A stretch of DNA of 46,494 nt from Deltaproteobacteria bacterium. Lineage in GTDB: Bacteria > Desulfobacterota > Desulfarculia > Adiutricales > Adiutricaceae. The DNA lies in assembly GCA_031264145.1 (NCBI GenBank), contig JAISEK010000017.1, positions 1 through 46,494 on the forward strand, written 5' to 3'. Both the position numbers and the translations under genes were made by a program. How positions within the stretch are numbered: the stretch's first letter is position 1; every line of letters starts with the position of its first letter. Shown one piece after another: positions 29,139-39,812 of the stretch. The notes beneath the pieces were generated by a model. The model was not told where the DNA came from and made no database searches. It saw nothing but the letters and a program-made list of their open reading frames with translations.

Positions 29139-29317
29139 CTCGTGCGCTGTGTCCGGCATGACGGCGAGACGTCGACAGCACGTTCCGCCGTCAAAGATGC
29201 CCCAGCCCGGCCCAACGGCCTGAACCATTTTCCTCGCCACGGGACGGCCATCTGGCCGTCCCATGGCCAACCGTTTCCCGCCTAACCGCATGTCGCCGGG
29301 CCGATCAGCGAGACTGA

Positions 29318-29353
29318 AGGCCGGGGAGCCCCGATGGGGCTGCCCGGCCTTTT
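29318..29353 (+). terminator. Probable intrinsic terminator
   Basis: GGCCGGG (29319-29325) and CCCGGCC (29343-29349) flank an inner AGCCCC/GGGGCT stem, giving a nearly continuous GC-rich hairpin followed by TTTT. No coding gene ends just upstream, which suggests a non-coding transcript or a second-line terminator. Confidence 0.55.
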
Positions 29354-29434
29354 CCGTAACCCGAGGGCCCTCAGGGGCCGGGGACGCCGACTCGTTTTCG
29401 GGGCCGGAAAAGCCCCGGGGCAATGAAAAAAATC

Positions 29435-29463
29435 TTGACAAGGTGGTTAGGGGGTGGTAAAAG
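29435..29463 (+). promoter_or_regulatory. Candidate sigma70-type promoter (upstream copy)
   Basis: TTGACA at 29435-29440, 17-base spacer, TAAAAG at 29458-29463 (four of six consensus bases). The segment TTGACAAGG-N2-GT-Y-AGG also occurs at 29035. It lies 39 bases upstream of the second candidate promoter. Confidence 0.4.
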
Positions 29464-29473
29464 ATGCCTAGGC

Positions 29474-29502
29474 TTGACTTAATCTATCTTTGTCCTTTTA
29501 AT
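29474..29502 (+). promoter_or_regulatory. Candidate promoter of the nitrogenase-like/ABC operon
   Basis: TTGACT at 29474-29479, 17-base spacer, TTTAAT at 29497-29502; five of six and four of six consensus matches. Predicted start near 29509. The transcript would contain a leader of about 180 bases ending in the terminator at 29627-29666. Found by eye only. Confidence 0.5.
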
Positions 29503-29517
29503 AGAAGTTTTATAAAC

Positions 29518-29601
29518 ATGTGTTGTTGTCATAAAATACATAAAACTATTTTTTTCGTTTTATCGTCAAATGATAATATCTTTTTAGACTATAAACATTG
29601 A
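29518..29601 (+). CDS. Possible 27-residue leader peptide beginning Met-Cys-Cys-Cys
   Basis: ATG at 29518 is followed at once by three TGT cysteine codons and runs to TGA at 29599-29601 (27 residues). Only a weak AGAAG lies upstream (29503-29507). Consecutive codons for one amino acid at the start of a short leader frame are the hallmark of ribosome-mediated attenuation. The region is AT-rich, so a chance frame is quite possible; the support is its position between a promoter and an intrinsic terminator directly before an operon, and the antiterminator-like pairing starting two bases after its stop. Confidence 0.4.
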   Translation: MCCCHKIHKTIFFVLSSNDNIFLDYKH

Positions 29602-29602
29602 T

Positions 29603-29666
29603 CCATAGCCAATCAGAAACCACTGAAGGCTAGGCCCGGACCCACCCGTCCGGGCCTAGCCTTTTT
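29603..29666 (+). promoter_or_regulatory. Transcription attenuator: perfect terminator hairpin and possible antiterminator
   Basis: AGGCTAGGCCCGGA (29627-29640) and TCCGGGCCTAGCCT (29649-29662) form a perfect 14-bp stem with an eight-base loop, followed by TTTTC. The hairpin ends about 20 bases before the first operon gene and no gene ends upstream for 650 bases, so it can only act on the operon's own leader. CC-A-TAGCC at 29603-29610 can pair, with one bulged A, with GGCTAGG at 29628-29634, which would break the terminator stem. The terminator itself is clear; the alternative structure and trigger are inference. Confidence 0.65.
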
Positions 29667-29687
29667 CGTTTCCAAGGAGGACGGCGG

Positions 29688-30596
29688 ATGACGAGCGACA
29701 CGACAGCCCGTGGCTTCAAGATAGTCCTGAGCAACCTCTCCCAAAGGTACGCGCTGAGGGGCACCGACGGCCAGGCCGGGGACACATTCCTGGCCCTGGA
29801 CGATTTCAGCCTGGCCGTCAGGGCCGGGGAGTTCGTCTCCATCGTCGGGCCCTCCGGCTGCGGCAAGTCCACTCTCCTGGACATCATCGCCGGCCTCTCC
29901 AGGGCCGCCCGCGGCTCCATCCTGATCGACGGCCGGCCGGTCTCTGGCCCCGACCTGGACAGGGGCATCGTCATGCAGGGCTACGCCCTCTTCCCTTGGC
30001 GCACGGTCCGCCGGAACGTGGAGTTCGGGCTGGAGATAAAGGGCCTCTCGGCGGCCGAGCGCCGGGAGACCGGGGCCAGGTACATCGACCTGGTCGGCCT
30101 GTCGGGCTTCGAGGACCGCTACCCCTACGAGCTGTCGGGAGGCATGAAGCAGAGGGTGGCCATAGCCAGGGCCCTGGCCTACGACCCCACGGTGCTGCTG
30201 ATGGACGAGCCCTTCGCCGCCGTCGACGCCCAGACCAGGGAGACCCTCCAGGACGAGCTGATGCGCATATGGGAGAAGACCGACAAGACCATCATCTTCG
30301 TGACCCACAGCATCGATGAGGCCATCCTCCTGGCCGACAGGGTGGTGGTCATGACCCCCAACCCCGGGCGCATCAAGTCCATAGTCGACGTGCCCCTCCC
30401 CCGGCCCAGGACCAACCGGGACATGCGCCTGGACCATGCCTTCGCTGGGCTGAGGCAGCAAATCTGGCTGACCCTCCAGGAAGGCGGCCAGGAGGCCGGC
30501 GTTCGCCAGGGTGCCCCCGCCCTGGAGGGCCCCCTGCCCTTCGTCCAGCCAGAGGCCGCCCTGCCCGGGGGCGCCGCGGCCTCCCTGGCCAGGTAG
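29688..30596 (+). CDS. ABC transporter ATP-binding protein, NitT/TauT (nitrate/sulfonate) type
   Basis: 302 residues; AAGGAGG seven bases before ATG. Walker A GPSGCGKSTLLDIIAG (about residues 62-77), signature LSGGMKQRVAIARAL, Walker B VLLMDEPFAAVD and the switch His in FVTHSIDEAILL are all intact. The core matches SsuB/TauB/NrtD ATPases, which power import of sulfonates, taurine, nitrate or related small anions. The C-terminal 45 residues are an unusual Gly/Ala/Pro-rich tail. It is the only ATPase gene in an operon with four permeases and two binding proteins, so it must serve several transporter assemblies. Expression is probably controlled by the terminator just upstream. Confidence 0.93.
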   Translation: MTSDTTARGFKIVLSNLSQRYALRGTDGQAGDTFLALDDFSLAVRAGEFVSIVGPSGCGKSTLLDIIAGLSRAARGSILIDGRPVSGPDLDRGIVMQGYALFPWRTVRRNVEFGLEIKGLSAAERRETGARYIDLVGLSGFEDRYPYELSGGMKQRVAIARALAYDPTVLLMDEPFAAVDAQTRETLQDELMRIWEKTDKTIIFVTHSIDEAILLADRVVVMTPNPGRIKSIVDVPLPRPRTNRDMRLDHAFAGLRQQIWLTLQEGGQEAGVRQGAPALEGPLPFVQPEAALPGGAAASLAR

Positions 30597-30647: not shown

Positions 30648-31769
30648 ATGGCCTTAAAGAAGAAGCATCGGGCCTATGTCGCGATCGCCGTCCTGGTGGC
30701 CGCCCTCATAGCCTTCGGGGCCGCCATGGGCCGGACGAGGCTCTCCTCCCCGGCCGAGGATCTGGCCCTCGGGGCGGCGGCGTCGCGGCCCGACGGGGAC
30801 CTGAGGGTCGTCAAGACCTTCTCCCGCAAGGATTGCTCGCTGGCTCCCTGGCTCATAACCGACAAGCTCGGCTACTTCAGGGACGAGGGCATCAGGCTGG
30901 TCTTCACCGGTGAGCTCCAGCCTCCCCAGAGGGTGCCATCCATCATCAGCGGGGACAACGACACCACCGGCCTCCACCCCAACGCCCTGGCCGTGGCCAT
31001 AAACGGCGGGGCCCCATTCAAGGGGGTCGTGCGGGCCGACATAGAGCCCCTCCCCGACGTGGACCCGTCCTTCAGGCACATGTGGTGGTTCGTGAACCCC
31101 GAGAAGTACCCTAACGTCAAGAGCTTCGCCGACCTCAAGGACATCCCCGGGACGATTAAGTTTTCGATCATCAACACCTCATCGTGCTCGGACTTTCTGG
31201 CCAACCGCATCCTTGACCGCCACGGGGTGCCCAGGGACAAGATAGAGTGGGTCCTGATGCCCGACGTCCAGGCCATACAGGCCCTCAAGCAGGGGCTGAC
31301 CGACGTGGGCGGCGTCCACCCCCCGTTCTACAAGGGCATGGTCGACGCCGAGATGCTCAAGATAGCCGACACCCAGGAGGCCGGACTGGACGACGAGGTG
31401 GCGGGCCTGAACTTCTACGTCTTCACCGAGGAGTTCATCAAAAACAACCCCGAGACAGTCAGGGGCTTCGTCCGGGCCATCACCAGGGGGCAGAAGTTCA
31501 TAAACGAGAACCCCGAGCAGGCCAGGATCTGGACCGAGGAGGTCATCGGCGTCCCGGTCTCGGCCAACCACTACTACTCGACCACCACCAGGATCGACGA
31601 CGACCAGATAATCCCATGGCTGGAGGATCTGGAGGACCATGACGTCATCCCCAGGGGAAAGCTCAAACCAGGAGACCTGGTGGTCCACGACTTCGAGAAC
31701 GAGACGATCTCGGATGCCTCGGCACCGGGCCGAACCGGCCGAAACGAGATCCCGGCAGGCGATTCCTGA
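30648..31769 (+). CDS. ABC transporter substrate-binding protein, SsuA/THI5-like (copy 1)
   Basis: 373 residues; GAAGGAG precedes the ATG. A signal peptide or anchor (basic KKKHR then AYVAIAVLVAALIAFGAAMG) targets it to the periplasm. The mature part has the two-lobed SsuA/NMT1 pattern: SLAPWLITDKLGYFRDEGIRLVF, the ligand-loop segment ISGDNDTTGLHPNALAVAINGGAPF, SFADLKDIPG and a C-terminal NPETVRGFVRAITRGQKFINENPEQA. Family members bind sulfonates, taurine, aromatic sulfur compounds, nitrate or pyrimidines. It is encoded between the ATPase and the nitrogenase-like genes, which suggests that its ligand is the enzyme's substrate or a cofactor component. Confidence 0.9.
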   Translation: MALKKKHRAYVAIAVLVAALIAFGAAMGRTRLSSPAEDLALGAAASRPDGDLRVVKTFSRKDCSLAPWLITDKLGYFRDEGIRLVFTGELQPPQRVPSIISGDNDTTGLHPNALAVAINGGAPFKGVVRADIEPLPDVDPSFRHMWWFVNPEKYPNVKSFADLKDIPGTIKFSIINTSSCSDFLANRILDRHGVPRDKIEWVLMPDVQAIQALKQGLTDVGGVHPPFYKGMVDAEMLKIADTQEAGLDDEVAGLNFYVFTEEFIKNNPETVRGFVRAITRGQKFINENPEQARIWTEEVIGVPVSANHYYSTTTRIDDDQIIPWLEDLEDHDVIPRGKLKPGDLVVHDFENETISDASAPGRTGRNEIPAGDS

Positions 31770-31929: not shown

Positions 31930-32832
31930 ATGGTTGCCAAGAGCAACGGAAAGAAGCCCCCAAGGAAGATCAAGCAGATCGCCATCTACGGCAAGGGCGG
32001 CATCGGCAAGTCCACCACCACCTCCAATCTCAGCGCCGCCCTCTCTGACATGGGCTACAAGGTCATGCAGTTCGGCTGCGACCCCAAGGCCGACTCGACC
32101 AATACCCTGCGGGGAGGGGCCTACATCCCCACCATCCTGGAGCTTCTGCGGGAGAACGGGCGGGTGGAGGCCCATGAGGCCATCCATGAGGGCTACAACG
32201 GCGTCTACTGCGTCGAGGCCGGCGGCCCCTCGCCTGGCGTGGGCTGCGCCGGCAGGGGGATCATAACCGCCGTCCAGCTCCTCAAGCAGCAGAACGTCTA
32301 CGAGGAGCTTGGCCTCGACTACGTGATCTACGACGTACTTGGGGACGTGGTCTGCGGCGGCTTCGCCGTGCCCATCAGGGAAGGCATAGCCCAACACGTC
32401 TTCACCGTGTCCTCGTCGGACTTCATGGCCATCTACGCGGCCAACAACCTCTTCAAGGGCATCCAGAAATACTCGAACGCCGGCGGGGCCCTCCTGGGCG
32501 GGCTCATAGCCAACTCGGTCTCGGGGGGCTACCAGAGGTCCATCATCGACGACTTCGTCTCCAGGACCGGGACGCAGGTCCTCCAGTACGTGCCCAGGTC
32601 GATCACCGTCACCCAAAGCGAGCTGGCCGGACGGACGACCATCGAGGCCGCCCCGGACTCCGAGCAGGCCGGGGTCTACCGGGAACTGGCCAAGAAAGTG
32701 GAGGCCCACGAGAACTCGGCCAGCCCAAGGCCCCTAGATCCCAGGGAGCTGCGCGACTGGGCCAGCGAGTGGTCTGACCAAATCCTGGCCATAGAGAGGG
32801 GCGAGGTCCGCTCCTCGGGGGCCCTGATATGA
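31930..32832 (+). CDS. Nitrogenase iron protein-like reductase (NifH family)
   Basis: 300 residues. P-loop [10 protein letters not shown] (21-30), switch [14 protein letters not shown], and cluster ligands C106 ([10 protein letters not shown]) and C142, equivalent to NifH C97 and C132, are intact, so it should form a homodimer with a bridging [4Fe-4S] cluster and transfer electrons on ATP hydrolysis to the NifDK-like partner encoded next. R109 corresponds to the Arg that is ADP-ribosylated in NifH. A 15-residue Lys-rich N-terminal extension is unusual. Sequence features such as [16 protein letters not shown] show a divergent NifH-like protein rather than canonical NifH. No NifI regulators are present. 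Confidence 0.93.
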
Positions 32833-32923
32833 CCGGGTGGCGGACGGGGCCTTCCGGCGCCCGAGGAAAACACCAGCCAGGCCCCTGGCGTCCCCAGGGA
32901 CGCCAGGGGCCGAAGGAGCAAAA

Positions 32924-34438
32924 ATGATCGATCTCAGCGAAAACACCTGCCCGACCAGGGAACAGAGGGCCAACGGCATCAACGCCTTCAGCGGCAAAGC
33001 CAGCGAGCTGCTGTCACAGGCCAGGGAAGGGAAGCTCAAGAACTGCGAGCGCGACTTCCAGCAAAACTCCGGCTGCCTTCTGAACTTCTATCTTTCCGTC
33101 AGGGTGGCCACCATAAGGGACTCGGTCATGATTGTCCACGCCCCGGTCGGCTGCTCGGCACCGGCCAACATCTACCGTGAGGTCTACCGGCGCCTGTGGA
33201 CCGGCCTGGGCCGGAGTCACGATGACTTCGACTTCCACTGGCTGACGACCAACCTGGGGGAGCGCGACGTCATCTACGGGGCGGCCGACAAGCTCAGGTT
33301 CGCCATCGCCGAGGCCGAGAGGCGGCACTCCCCGGAGGCCATCTTCATTCTCACGTCCTGCGCCTCGGGCATCATCGGGGAGGACGTCGAGGGGGTGGTC
33401 GCCGAGCTCCAGCCTGGGACCAGGGCCACAATCGTCCCCATCCACTGCGAGGGTATACGCTCGAGGATAGTCCAGACCGGCTACGACGCCTTCTGGCACG
33501 GCATCCTCAAGTACCTTGTCAGGGAGCCGGAAAAGAGGCAGGGGGACCTGGTGAACGTCGCCAGCATGCTCAGCTACACCTGGCAGGACCGGCAGGAGAT
33601 ATCCAGGCTCCTCGGGAGGATGGGGCTTCGGGCCAACTTCGTCCCCGAGTTCGCCTCGGTCGAGGACTTCAGGAACCTGGGGAGCGCCGCCCTCACGGCC
33701 CCGGTCTGCCCGACCTACACCGACTACCTGTCCCGGGGCCTCGACGAGCATTTCGGGGTGCCCTTCTTCATGTACCCCTCGCCGATCGGCATCGCCAACA
33801 CAGACGCCTGGCTGCGGGAGATCGGGGCCAGGCTGGATCTCTCGGAGAGGGCCGAGGAGGTCATCGCCTCCGAGCGGGCCCGCTGGGTCCCCAGGATGGA
33901 GAAGATCCAGGAAGGCTTCGCCAAGGTCAAGGCCGACAACGGCGGCGACTTCCGGGTCATGGGCTCCCTTGGCCAGGGCCGCCTGGTCACCCAGACCCCC
34001 TTCTTCAGGGAACTCGGCGTCTCGACCCCGGTGGCCCTGTGCCAGGACTTCGACGATCTCCTCCTGGAGGACGTGGAGCGGCTCCTTGAGCGGGTCGGCG
34101 ACTTCGAGATCATAGTCAACACCTTCCAGGCGGCCGAGGTGGCCCACACGGCCCGCAAGCACGACCCTGACATGGTCCTCTCCTGCCCCTTCCAGGGCAG
34201 CGCCTACAAGCGCCAGAAGGGCATGACCAGGATCCACGCCCTCCGGGGCGACGGGCGCCTGTGGAGCGCCCAGGCCGGCTACGCCGGGGCCGTGGCCTGC
34301 GGCAACTTCCTTCTCCAGGCCACCAAGAACCGCTCCTTCCAGAACACCATGCTGGCCAAGACCGAGGATCCCTACCGCGAATGGTGGTACCGGCAGCCGG
34401 ATCCCCACTATTTCCACCGCAAGGAGGCCAGGGGATAA
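32924..34438 (+). CDS. Nitrogenase component 1 alpha-like subunit (NifD family)
   Basis: 504 residues from ATG 32924, chosen for GAAGGAG upstream; a GTG at 32837 would add 29 unlikely residues. Aligning by eye with NifD, P-cluster ligands C62, C88, C154 correspond to C51, C77, C146, with identical 26-residue spacing of the first pair. Cofactor ligands C275 and H442 correspond to C262 (in APVCPTYTDYLSRGL) and H438 (in TRIHALRGD). V70 and R96 are kept as V59 and R85, but the proton-relay H195 is Tyr187 and Q191 is not aligned. The protein should therefore bind a P-cluster and a NifB-derived cofactor yet have altered substrate chemistry. Forms a complex with the NifK-like product of the adjoining gene. 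Confidence 0.92.
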   Translation: MIDLSENTCPTREQRANGINAFSGKASELLSQAREGKLKNCERDFQQNSGCLLNFYLSVRVATIRDSVMIVHAPVGCSAPANIYREVYRRLWTGLGRSHDDFDFHWLTTNLGERDVIYGAADKLRFAIAEAERRHSPEAIFILTSCASGIIGEDVEGVVAELQPGTRATIVPIHCEGIRSRIVQTGYDAFWHGILKYLVREPEKRQGDLVNVASMLSYTWQDRQEISRLLGRMGLRANFVPEFASVEDFRNLGSAALTAPVCPTYTDYLSRGLDEHFGVPFFMYPSPIGIANTDAWLREIGARLDLSERAEEVIASERARWVPRMEKIQEGFAKVKADNGGDFRVMGSLGQGRLVTQTPFFRELGVSTPVALCQDFDDLLLEDVERLLERVGDFEIIVNTFQAAEVAHTARKHDPDMVLSCPFQGSAYKRQKGMTRIHALRGDGRLWSAQAGYAGAVACGNFLLQATKNRSFQNTMLAKTEDPYREWWYRQPDPHYFHRKEARG

Positions 34439-34439
34439 G

Positions 34440-35801
34440 ATGGCCCTTACCCTTGTCAAGGGCTCGGAAGGGCCCCTTTCCGCCGTCGAGTATCCCGAGG
34501 TGGCCGAGGCCCCCCGCTTCACCTGCGCCCTGGGGGGCGCCTACGGGGCCACCCTGGGCCTCTACGGGGCCGTCCCCCTACTCCACTCTGGCTCCGGCTG
34601 CGGCATGGCCAACGCCCAGGGCATGACCTACGCCTCGGGTCTCAACTCGGGGGGCATGATCGGCCCCACCACCACCCCCTGCTCGGGGCTCGTCGAGGAG
34701 CACGTGGTCTTCGGGGGCGAGGACAAGCTCCGGCGCCTCATCGAGACGACCATCCAGATCATGAGGGGCGAGCTGTACGTCGTCATATCCGGCTGCGTCC
34801 CGGCCCTCATCGGCGACGACGTGGACTCGGTCGTGGCCTCCTTCAGGGACCGGGCAAGGGTCATCCACGTCAAGACCTCCGGCTTCGCCGGGAACGGCTT
34901 CGCCGGCTACGACCTCTTCCTCGACTCGCTGGTCGACAACGTCCTTTCAGGAGAAAAGCCGGACGTGGAAAAAAGGCTCGTCAATATCCTGGGTCTGGCC
35001 CCCAACCAGCACGTTTTCTGGAAGGGGGAGCTTCTGGCCCTCAAGGAGCTCTTCGCCTCCGTCGGCATCCTGGCCAACCCCATCTTCGCCGACTTCGGGT
35101 CGGTCGCGGCCGTCCAGGCCATCCCCAAGGCGGCCCTGAACGTTGTCCTGAGCCCCTGGAACGGCCTCGCGGCGGCCAGGAAGCTGGAGGAGCGCTACGG
35201 CACGCCCCTCGAGGCCTTCGGCTACGTGCCCATCGGGCCAAGGGACACGGCCAGCCTCCTCAGGGCCGTGGGCCGAAGGCTTCGGCTGCCGGGCCGGAAA
35301 GTCGAGGCGGCCATCTCCTCCCAGGAGCGCCACGCATACCGCTTCATGGAGTACCTGGCCGAGATGTTCATGGTGGCCATGCCCCACGCCTACACGGCCG
35401 TCATAGCCGACAGCCGCACGGCCATCGCCCTGACCCGCTACGGGGCCAACGAGCTGGGCTGGAACCCACAGCTGGCCGTGGTCACCGACGACCCGCCCGA
35501 GGATCGCCGCCCTGAAATAGAGAGGCTCCTGACCGAGGGGCTCGAGGGGACGAGCGTGCCCCGGGTCATCTTCGACTACGACTCGCACCGCATAAGGGGC
35601 TACCTGAGGGAACAGCCGCTCCAGGTCATCTTCGGCAGTTCCCTGGAGAAATACATCGCCAAAAGGGAGAACGAGTCCCACCACCTGAGCGTGGCCTACC
35701 CAACCTACGACCGCCTGGTGGTGGATCGGAGCTACGCCGGCTTTCGCGGGGGCATCGCCCTTCTGGAGGACATGTCCCATTCCTTCGCCGGCCCGACCTG
35801 A
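34440..35801 (+). CDS. Nitrogenase component 1 beta-like subunit (NifK family)
   Basis: 453 residues, starting one base after the NifD-like stop, so tightly coupled. P-cluster ligands equivalent to NifK C70, C95, C153 are C29 (FTCALGG), C54 (GSGCGMA, same 25-residue spacing) and C119 (SGCVPALIGDD). Other family marks are EEHVVFGGEDKLRR near residues 86-99 and SPWNGLAAARKLEERYGTP. The N-terminus lacks the roughly 40-residue extension of NifK, and the protein is about 70 residues shorter, as in nitrogenase-like enzymes. Partner of the NifD-like subunit. Confidence 0.92.
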   Translation: MALTLVKGSEGPLSAVEYPEVAEAPRFTCALGGAYGATLGLYGAVPLLHSGSGCGMANAQGMTYASGLNSGGMIGPTTTPCSGLVEEHVVFGGEDKLRRLIETTIQIMRGELYVVISGCVPALIGDDVDSVVASFRDRARVIHVKTSGFAGNGFAGYDLFLDSLVDNVLSGEKPDVEKRLVNILGLAPNQHVFWKGELLALKELFASVGILANPIFADFGSVAAVQAIPKAALNVVLSPWNGLAAARKLEERYGTPLEAFGYVPIGPRDTASLLRAVGRRLRLPGRKVEAAISSQERHAYRFMEYLAEMFMVAMPHAYTAVIADSRTAIALTRYGANELGWNPQLAVVTDDPPEDRRPEIERLLTEGLEGTSVPRVIFDYDSHRIRGYLREQPLQVIFGSSLEKYIAKRENESHHLSVAYPTYDRLVVDRSYAGFRGGIALLEDMSHSFAGPT

Positions 35802-35843: not shown

Positions 35844-36701
35844 ATGAACGTCCCAGGCGACCATCCCTGCTTCTCGGCCGACTGCCGGCCCAACCTGGGC
35901 CGCATCCACCTTCCGGTGGCCCCGGGCTGCAACATCTTCTGCCGCTTCTGCTCCCGGGGCATCTCCGGCCACCTGGACCGCCCCGGCCAGGCCTTCAGGG
36001 CCATAACCCCCAGGGAGGCCCTGGGGGCCCTGGAGTCGGCCCTGAGGCTCTGCCCCGAGATAAGGGTGGCCGGGGTGGCCGGCCCAGGGGACCCACTGGC
36101 CGGCCCCGAGGCCCTGGAGACCCTGGCTCTGGTGAGGGCCCACCACCCCTCCATCATCGGCTGCCTCTCCACCAACGGCCTGGCCCTATACGAGAGCATG
36201 GAGGGACTCCTCCTGGCCGGGGTGAGGACGGTCACCGTGACCGTGAACGCCGTCGACCCCAGGATCCTCTCCGCCCTGAACGGCGGGGTCATCCTGGACG
36301 GCCGGACCGTGGCCGGGACGGACGGGGCCGAGATCCTCATAGCGGCCCAGGAGCGGGGCATGAGGCTGGCCAGCCAGAACTCCTTGGCCATCAAGGCCAA
36401 CATGGTCCTGGTCCCCGGCCTGAACGACGGGCACGTCGCTGAGGTGGCCAGGCGCGTGAGGGACTGGGGGGCGAATCTGATGAACGTCATCCCCCTGATT
36501 CCCGCTGGCGGCCTGGCCGGCATCCCGGCCCCTTCCGCCATGGACGTAGAGCGGGCGGCCAGGGAGGCCGGCAGATTCTTGCCGGTCAAGAGAAACTGCC
36601 GGCGCTGCCGGGCCGATGCCTGCGGGGTGCCTGGCCTGAGCGACTTTTCCAGAGAAATATACGGCCCTGGGTGGCCACGGGAGACATTCTCACATGGCTA
36701 G
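35844..36701 (+). CDS. NifB-like radical SAM cofactor-maturation protein
   Basis: 285 residues; AAGGAG eight bases upstream. Radical-SAM cysteines C29, C33, C36 (CNIFCRFC). NifB hallmarks are HPCFS at residues 7-11, AGPGDPLAGPE, CLSTNGLAL, VTVTVNAVDP and the C-terminal CRRCRADACG, whose cysteines bind the K-cluster precursors in NifB. It lacks the C-terminal NifX domain of many bacterial NifB proteins; that domain is encoded by the next, overlapping gene. Predicted role is to build a carbide-containing Fe-S cluster (NifB-co-like) for the NifDK-like enzyme. Its presence argues strongly that the enzyme uses a NifB-type cofactor. Confidence 0.92.
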   Translation: MNVPGDHPCFSADCRPNLGRIHLPVAPGCNIFCRFCSRGISGHLDRPGQAFRAITPREALGALESALRLCPEIRVAGVAGPGDPLAGPEALETLALVRAHHPSIIGCLSTNGLALYESMEGLLLAGVRTVTVTVNAVDPRILSALNGGVILDGRTVAGTDGAEILIAAQERGMRLASQNSLAIKANMVLVPGLNDGHVAEVARRVRDWGANLMNVIPLIPAGGLAGIPAPSAMDVERAAREAGRFLPVKRNCRRCRADACGVPGLSDFSREIYGPGWPRETFSHG

Positions 36702-37994: not shown

Positions 37995-38774
37995 ATGAAA
38001 CGTATAGGCGGCTTTTTTGGCGATTCCTTTTACAGGTTTGGCTCCATCGTCCTCTTCGTCCTGGCCTGGCAGACACTCTGCTCCACCGGCCTCGCCCCCG
38101 GGACCTTCGTGGCCTCACCGGCCGTCATCGCCGAGACCCTGGCCAAATGGGCCGTCAACGGCTTTCTGGCCAGACACGGCCTGATCTCACTCTCCCGGGC
38201 CCTGTACGGCTTTCTCCTGGCGGTGGCCGTCGGGGTCCCCCTTGGTTTCCTCCTGGGCGGCTGGTTCAAGGCGGCCGGCAGGATCCTGGATCCGCTTCTG
38301 AAGTTCCTGGGCCAGTTCAACCCCTTCGCCCTCTTTTCCGTGTTCATGCTCATCTTCGGCCTGGGCGAAACCTCAAAGGTGGCCATGATCTTCTGGGTCT
38401 CGCTCTGGCCAATACTCCACAACGCCTCCCTGGGGGTCAGGACGGTCGATCCCCTGTTCGTGAAGCTGGCCCGCAGCCTGGGCCTCTCCCGGCCAAGGAT
38501 CCTCTGGCGCATCGTCGTCCCCTCCTCGGCCCCCTATCTCTTCAGCGGCCTCAGGCAGGCCTCGGGCACGGCCTTCTTCATGCTCATCCCGGCCGAGATG
38601 CTGGGGGCCGCCCGCGGCCTGGGCTGGCTCATCATAAATGCGCAGATAAACTACCAGATCCCCCAGCTCTACGCCGGAACGGCCATCATCGTCGCCATTG
38701 GCCTGGCCATCGACGCTCTCTTCAGGTTCCTGGAGGGCCAGGTGGTCAGGTGGAGGGAGAAGGCCGCCGTCTAG
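37995..38774 (+). CDS. ABC transporter permease, NitT/TauT (SsuC) type, copy 2
   Basis: 259 residues; 16 bases after copy 1, no strong ribosome site. About six transmembrane helices, motif GQFNPFALFSVFMLIFGLGE, EAA loop ARSLGLSRPRILWRIVVPSS and ML-PAEMLGAARGLGWLI. It groups by eye with copy 4 (RILWRI/SILSRI, GAARGLG/GASRGLG). Copies 1 and 2 may pair as a heterodimeric channel. Confidence 0.9.
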   Translation: MKRIGGFFGDSFYRFGSIVLFVLAWQTLCSTGLAPGTFVASPAVIAETLAKWAVNGFLARHGLISLSRALYGFLLAVAVGVPLGFLLGGWFKAAGRILDPLLKFLGQFNPFALFSVFMLIFGLGETSKVAMIFWVSLWPILHNASLGVRTVDPLFVKLARSLGLSRPRILWRIVVPSSAPYLFSGLRQASGTAFFMLIPAEMLGAARGLGWLIINAQINYQIPQLYAGTAIIVAIGLAIDALFRFLEGQVVRWREKAAV

Positions 38775-38798
38775 CCCTCCCCGCCTGCCCACGGCCCC

Positions 38799-39812
38799 GT
38801 GACCCCCGCCGCGGCCTCCCGGACGCCGCCTTCCAAGAACATCGCGCCGGTGGCCCTAGGCGGCAAGGCCACGGCCCAGCGGGGCATGAGAATGACCCTC
38901 CCGAGACGCTCCCCAACGAGGTTCCTGGTCCCGGCCGCCATGTTGGCCCTCTGGGAAACCCTTTCCCGCCTGGGACTGCTAGATCCCCAGTTCGTGCCCG
39001 GCCTCGCGGACAGCCTGGCGGCGGCCCTGGACATGACCAGGCGGGCCTTCCTCCTCACCCACGCCATGGTCTCGCTGGCCCGGGTGGCCTTGGCCCTAGG
39101 CCTGGCCCTCCTGGCGGGGGTGCCCCTGGCCTTTTCCCTCGGCCACGCCTGGCCAGGTGCCTTCAGGTTCCTGGAGCCGCTCCTTCGGGTCCTCGGGCAA
39201 ATAAACCCCTACTGCCTCTTCCCCGTCTTCGTGGTCGTCTTCGGCCTGGGCGAGGCGGCCAAGATCTCCGTGTTGGCCTGGGTGGCCCTCTGGCCCATAT
39301 TTTTCGGCACCCTGGCCGGCCTGGGGGACCTGGATCCGGTCCTGGCCAGGGCGGCCAGGGGCATGGGGGCCGGGAAGGCCTCCGTCTTCCTCAAGGTGGC
39401 CATCCCGGCCGCCTCGCCCTCCATCTTCGCCGGGGCCCGCACAGGAGTCCAGATGGCCTTCTTCATCCTAATCGCCGCCGAGATGACCGGGGCCACGGCC
39501 GGCCTGGGCTGGCTTGTCCACAACGCCGGGGCCATGTTCCAGGTGCCCAGGATCTACGGTGCCGGCCTGGTCATCGTGGCCCTGGGCCTCGGCCTCAACA
39601 GGTTCCTGGTCTTCCTCGACCGCGGCCTCTTCTTCTGGCGGGCCAGCGGGCCAGGCCAGGATGGCTTGCCCCGGCCTGGCCCGCTGGCCTTGGCACTGGC
39701 CCTGGCCGCTGCCCTCATAGTCCTGGCCATCGGCCTCATCGGGATGGCCAGGGCCGAGTCCCTCCTGAACGATCCCTCCGTCGTCCCAGAGTACCGGGTC
39801 TGGACCGAGTGA
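38799..39812 (+). CDS. ABC transporter permease, NitT/TauT (SsuC) type, copy 3, with extra C-terminal membrane helix
   Basis: 337 residues from GTG 38799; an ATG at 38886 would shorten the odd Ala/Pro-rich N-terminus and may be the real start. The core has GQINPYCLFPVFVVVFGLGE, EAA loop ARGMGAGKASVFLKVAIPAA and LIAAEMTGATAGLGWLV. Beyond the family's normal end it continues about 60 residues with an additional hydrophobic helix (LALALALAAALIVLAIGLIGMA) and a short tail, absent in the other copies. Confidence 0.88.
   Translation: MTPAAASRTPPSKNIAPVALGGKATAQRGMRMTLPRRSPTRFLVPAAMLALWETLSRLGLLDPQFVPGLADSLAAALDMTRRAFLLTHAMVSLARVALALGLALLAGVPLAFSLGHAWPGAFRFLEPLLRVLGQINPYCLFPVFVVVFGLGEAAKISVLAWVALWPIFFGTLAGLGDLDPVLARAARGMGAGKASVFLKVAIPAASPSIFAGARTGVQMAFFILIAAEMTGATAGLGWLVHNAGAMFQVPRIYGAGLVIVALGLGLNRFLVFLDRGLFFWRASGPGQDGLPRPGPLALALALAAALIVLAIGLIGMARAESLLNDPSVVPEYRVWTE

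Follow-up and report, generated by a model that had tools for sequence, protein, structure and literature searches.

The nitrogenase-like operon in the window (the whole 46,494-nucleotide stretch of DNA analyzed here) is preceded by a copy of a multi-copy cis-acting RNA hairpin, which probably decides the read-through of sulfur-acquisition genes. The conserved core of this element takes the form NGCY-RA-UCAG-loop-CUGA-A-GGCN and overlaps a terminator. The evidence as a whole tips modestly towards an explanation in which the element controls termination across a sulfur regulon, with a tandem DUF2292 protein as the candidate factor and a cysteine-rich upstream open reading frame (uORF) as an added layer. 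Terminator/antiterminator control is ordinary in kind; the novelty lies in the element itself, in how widely it occurs and in the factor that may act on it.

Pfam and NCBIfam assign the first gene of the window operon to an ABC transporter ATPase of the taurine/nitrate type (29688-30596, forward strand like all features below), and the genes after it to an NMT1-like substrate-binding protein (30648-31769), a NifH-like protein (31930-32832), NifD-like and NifK-like components (32837-34438 and 34440-35801) and a NifB-like radical SAM protein (35844-36701). The operon also has several ABC permease genes, two of them at 37995-39812. Upstream, the sequence confirms the promoter-like hexamers TTGACT and TTTAAT picked out by the first-pass annotation (29474-29479 and 29497-29502, spacing 17), which we regard as an alternative start. 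That annotation had overlooked a second promoter-like pair, TTGACA-17-TAAAAG at 29435-29463, similar in form and place to promoters in the relatives (TTGACA-17/18-TANNAT). Translation likewise bears out the short frame at 29518-29601, MCCCHKIHKTIFFVLSSNDNIFLDYKH, with 27 codons, cysteine at codons 2-4 and a TGA at 29599-29601. This frame is strongly AT-rich, the region 29500-29599 having 20% GC inside a window of 63% GC.

The frame is followed by an antiterminator-like hairpin at 29603-29634, its core beginning at 29608, which is supported by folding, conservation and covariation. Both strings earlier proposed to pair, CCATAGCC at 29603-29610 and GGCTAGG at 29628-29634, are present, and the hairpin does fold. 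An intrinsic terminator with a T-run occupies 29625-29667 just before the first gene, as had been noted; its stem is longer than the 14 bp then given, comprising 17 pairs at 29625-29664, and its 5' arm is common with the hairpin. The leader at 29508-29672 folds with a z-score of -7.5 relative to dinucleotide shuffles, none of 200 being as good. The terminator fold has an energy of -35.4 kcal/mol, and once the terminator 3' arm is omitted 29603-29634 folds as CC.UAGCC..UCAG/CUGA.GGCUA.GG at -11.5 kcal/mol; hence, the mutually exclusive pairing of antiterminator and terminator is real in silico. A complete second copy of hairpin and terminator, also missed in the earlier reading, lies further upstream at 29294-29355 (core 29300-29321), where it is recovered by the covariance model (E 1e-11), by pattern and by folding; it is without a cysteine-rich frame. 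Locus L033 likewise has two element copies (3640 and 4342), each with a cysteine-rich frame.

The closest relatives of the window genome are deltaproteobacterial metagenome-assembled genomes, apparently from termite guts. Orthologous operons display the same order of promoter, leader, hairpin, terminator and first gene. The string kept across these leaders is GCYGATCAG-N-CTGAAGGC, continuing into the terminator, and the uORF is not the conserved part. The element is a single hairpin of about 28 nt with a loop that varies in length and sequence. In a 22-sequence alignment, 88.6% of cells in the antiterminator helix are paired, as against at most 50% in slid controls. Covarying stems, which the first-pass annotation had suggested looking for, are indeed found. 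At the loop-closing position, 80 of 112 copies have G-C and 14 have A-U, with 97 paired in all (permutation p<1e-4), where the 112 were selected loosely, with no condition on the two inner positions, and the shuffles ignore relatedness. The first outer pair (-1/+1) also covaries among 101 copies (permutation p=1e-4); pairs beyond it show no covariation.

A pattern search of the window genome and all collected loci places the element before other genes too, including in Firmicutes. In the window genome, the covariance model gives 24 raw matches at E 0.1, of which about 9-10 look genuine, the weak ones including plain terminators matched on both strands. The model finds 3-21 matches in each of 24 of the 25 scanned genomes of the family; elsewhere in the order and class, matches are few and weak. 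The exception within the family, G023 (91% complete), has neither element matches nor DUF2292. Other loci led to 45 genomes, of which only seven are element-rich (12-34 matches): one family member and six of Sporomusa/Pelosinus type with 16-34 matches each. The element's presence in both groups points either to great age or to exchange. Rfam scans of the window and its relatives, at gathering score and relaxed, returned no family matching the element, the window giving a sub-threshold Thr_leader match (27.4 versus 55 bits), and our literature searches found no description of it. Two Firmicutes sulfur loci with the element also contain SAM riboswitches (RF00162; L103:18814-18912 and L092:16785-16883), and thus two RNA controls coexist there.

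The genes behind the copies constitute, by their family assignments, a sulfur-acquisition regulon. Among 90 downstream proteins, the cysteine synthase family contributes 23, ABC ATPases 14 (MetN with a NIL domain among them), NifH-like proteins eight and NifDK-like proteins six. As the downstream gene was picked automatically, individual assignments may err, and many copies of the element are orthologous; the overall tally is clear. Sulfhydrylases and related Cys/Met PLP enzymes, NMT1-like and sulfate-type binding proteins, sulfonate/sulfate uptake systems, a YeiH-like family and DUF2292 itself also occur downstream. In the window's own genome, one copy precedes a cysteine synthase gene (G000:C49:24172-24233) and another an O-acetylhomoserine sulfhydrylase-like gene (G000:C103:19787-19851).

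These observations suggest the following mechanism. In silico, the hairpin GCY-RA-UCAG-loop-CUGA-A-GGC takes the 5' arm of a strong terminator; as the two structures compete for this one arm, only one of them can form. With no factor bound, the terminator would prevail and the genes would be off. Under sulfur shortage, a trans-acting factor, for which the candidate is an OscA-like tandem DUF2292 protein ending in GDGI, would hold the small hairpin, allowing RNA polymerase to pass and the genes to be expressed. At the window operon, the cysteine-rich uORF would probably add a second input: a ribosome completing it would cover the hairpin 5' arm and cause termination, while one stalled at the cysteine codons would leave that arm free and permit read-through.

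The candidate factor emerges from the phyletic pattern. DUF2292 (PF10055) is encoded by 21 of the 25 family genomes and by none of 15 other relatives. The candidate protein contains two stretches that each score above the Pfam cut-off, and this organization, with a C-terminal GDGI, is shared by the DUF2292 proteins of the family and of Sporomusa/Pelosinus. In an even sample of the phylum (297 genomes) the tandem version is confined to family members, and it is present in all seven element-rich genomes of the second set; in genomes with single-domain versions, the element model yields 0-3 weak matches. In several genomes a DUF2292 gene is no more than a few hundred bases away from an element; G018, G237, G240 and G241 have such genes near elements, and the element-bearing sulfur loci of Sporomusa also encode small DUF2292 proteins. 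In the window genome, the DUF2292 gene does not adjoin any element. At L103:16325, L097:14687 and L092:14321, a hairpin core with a weak or missing terminator stands upstream of a DUF2292 gene. Among named families, OscA (NF033785, sulfur starvation response) is the closest, and the tandem proteins match it at 35.8-53.7 bits against a cut-off of 85; oscA encodes a small protein of unknown function and is clustered with sulfate-transport genes (PMC2996968). An AlphaFold2 model of middling confidence (pLDDT 74) has an alpha-beta-beta unit twice. It gave no Foldseek match at E<0.05 and an uninformative best VIA-align Z of 4.0, with no RNA-binding fold matched; a second model brought no improvement, the sequence had no significant match among solved structures, and literature searches on DUF2292 found little.

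As the co-occurrence of DUF2292 with the element rests on two lineages, shared descent and transfer account for some of it; Fisher tests of this co-occurrence take no account of phylogeny, and their values are not to be taken as probabilities. The co-occurrence and linkage fit a regulator, and fit a mere member of the regulon too. From these sequence patterns, we consider a regulatory role for the tandem protein a serious possibility that falls short of even chances. The fuller proposal, in which tandem DUF2292 proteins would be a new family of RNA-binding antiterminators acting on this hairpin and switching the sulfur regulon in two phyla, with input from cysteine-stalled ribosomes at the window operon, is one we advance only tentatively. 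The best-surviving alternative keeps the same element and assigns the factor's role to another RNA-binding protein, DUF2292 being merely co-regulated. Such a protein would account for the three element-bearing family drafts (81-87% complete) in which no DUF2292 was found, and for a DUF2292 that has no recognized RNA-binding fold and whose genes lie among sulfur genes. It is nevertheless rather unlikely, since the tandem GDGI version accompanies the element in two phyla, and a CAT_RBD (BglG/LicT-type) factor was rejected, such proteins occurring in none of 37 family genomes in a search whose positive controls worked. ANTAR-domain proteins were likewise found in 0/37, but no control genome gave a match either.

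The first-pass annotation had proposed ribosome-mediated cysteine attenuation through the uORF. When the 160 nt upstream are dinucleotide-shuffled, 0.5% of the shuffles yield, as the window does, a uORF that has three cysteine codons within eight and stops just ahead of the hairpin. Across 107 copies, we scored frames ending at most 45 nt upstream of the core, calling them cysteine-rich if any eight codons held at least two cysteines. By this measure, 9 of the 13 leaders orthologous to that of the window operon have such a uORF, compared with 3 among the 95 other copies (Fisher p=4e-8; treating the related g8 leaders, of one genus, as a single case gives 3e-5); the nine comprise seven scored automatically plus L046 (a reading-frame misfile) and L033 (a degenerate core, read by eye), these two additions and the cysteine threshold having been fixed after inspection of the data. 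Thus, the cysteine frame is conserved among relatives of this operon in kind rather than in sequence; the absence of such a frame among relatives, which the first-pass annotation named as refuting its proposal, is not what is seen at this operon. Peptide sequence changes from genus to genus (MCCC..., MKCCNNCCQNINC..., ...ECEKCSC... and ...ACCRGPVCAMRQT), which argues for selection on the cysteine codons rather than on the peptide; most g8 leaders retain a cysteine codon roughly 11 codons ahead of the stop. In the window the uORF stop lies 9 nt before the core, so a ribosome terminating there should cover the hairpin 5' arm. In several g8 leaders the distance is 18-21 nt, about the limit of what a ribosome covers, and blocking there is doubtful.

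That cysteine attenuation alone explains the system, the uORF being the sole sensor at the window operon with no trans-acting factor, is a reading to which we give little credence. The cysteines at codons 2-4, the exclusive hairpins, the close stop and the cysteine-rich uORFs of the orthologous leaders all speak for it, but 95 other copies possess the same conserved core, and with cysteine-rich uORFs in just three of these, ribosome stalling cannot be the general switch. In Sporomusa/Pelosinus loci, the hairpin begins about 25-60 nt past a TTGACA/TATAAT promoter, too near for a cysteine-rich frame. The same hairpin stands before cysK, sulfhydrylase and metN genes without such a uORF, often at this distance, and hence the general switch is not a stalled ribosome. 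A plain ribosomal attenuator would, moreover, have no need of a conserved hairpin sequence. What stands of the original proposal is therefore a terminator and antiterminator before a sulfur-linked operon with cysteine uORFs in most orthologous leaders: because of these uORFs an added cysteine-sensing layer is plausible there on comparative grounds, and the attenuation mechanism may hold as that extra layer. It is not the general role of the element.

A small-molecule riboswitch, in which the hairpin itself would sense a sulfur metabolite, is improbable. The conserved internal loop (RA/A) and flanks and the dispensability of the uORF would suit it, but the hairpin has only about 28 nt, its loop is variable and Rfam contains no match. 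That the copies are ordinary terminators with a common sequence habit and no regulatory role can be dismissed almost entirely: all but a few do include a strong terminator, but they sit between the promoter and the first sulfur gene rather than 3' of genes, and the 5' arm of the small hairpin, unneeded for termination, is conserved and covarying. A DNA operator was also considered, and is disfavored by the covariation and the overlap with the terminator.

If the proposed control by the hairpin and a trans-acting factor is true, a single repeated hairpin, absent from Rfam and common to a family of Deltaproteobacteria and Sporomusa-type Firmicutes, governs a sulfur regulon through RNA. This would also assign a testable function to DUF2292/OscA, a small and functionally uncharacterized protein linked to sulfur starvation (PMC2996968). 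The nitrogenase-like operon would, in turn, gain a link to sulfur acquisition that does not rest on its enzymes.

Several known systems invite comparison. The RAT antiterminators of LicT/BglG are hairpins of about 28 nt with an asymmetric internal loop that overlap a terminator; our element is similar in size, internal loop and placement, but has another consensus, and the family has no CAT_RBD protein (0/37). ANTAR target RNAs comprise two hexaloop hairpins that overlap a terminator, with read-through driven by the protein. The element shares the overlap, but is one hairpin with a variable loop. The window leader has the architecture of leader-peptide attenuators such as the Rfam Thr and Trp leaders, although no match attains gathering score. 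Two hallmarks of amino-acid attenuators, a run of regulatory codons and an exclusive antiterminator/terminator pair, are present at the window operon; a leader frame is not found throughout the element family (3/95 other copies). Poly-cysteine uORF attenuators in mycobacteria and predicted cysteine leader peptides in Actinobacteria have been described (PMC1262725; Canestrari et al. 2020, as cited in PMC13236596), and like them the window leader has a run of cysteine codons in a short frame before sulfur genes. For those leaders no conserved terminator hairpins are reported and Rho is suggested (PMC1262725), whereas here there is an intrinsic terminator with a conserved antiterminator hairpin, and most copies are without a uORF. 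Finally, the candidate factor resembles OscA/YezD (DUF2292, PF10055; NF033785) as a small protein family tied to sulfur starvation, but is distinguished by its two domains and C-terminal GDGI, a score below the OscA cut-off and its linkage to a multi-copy RNA element.
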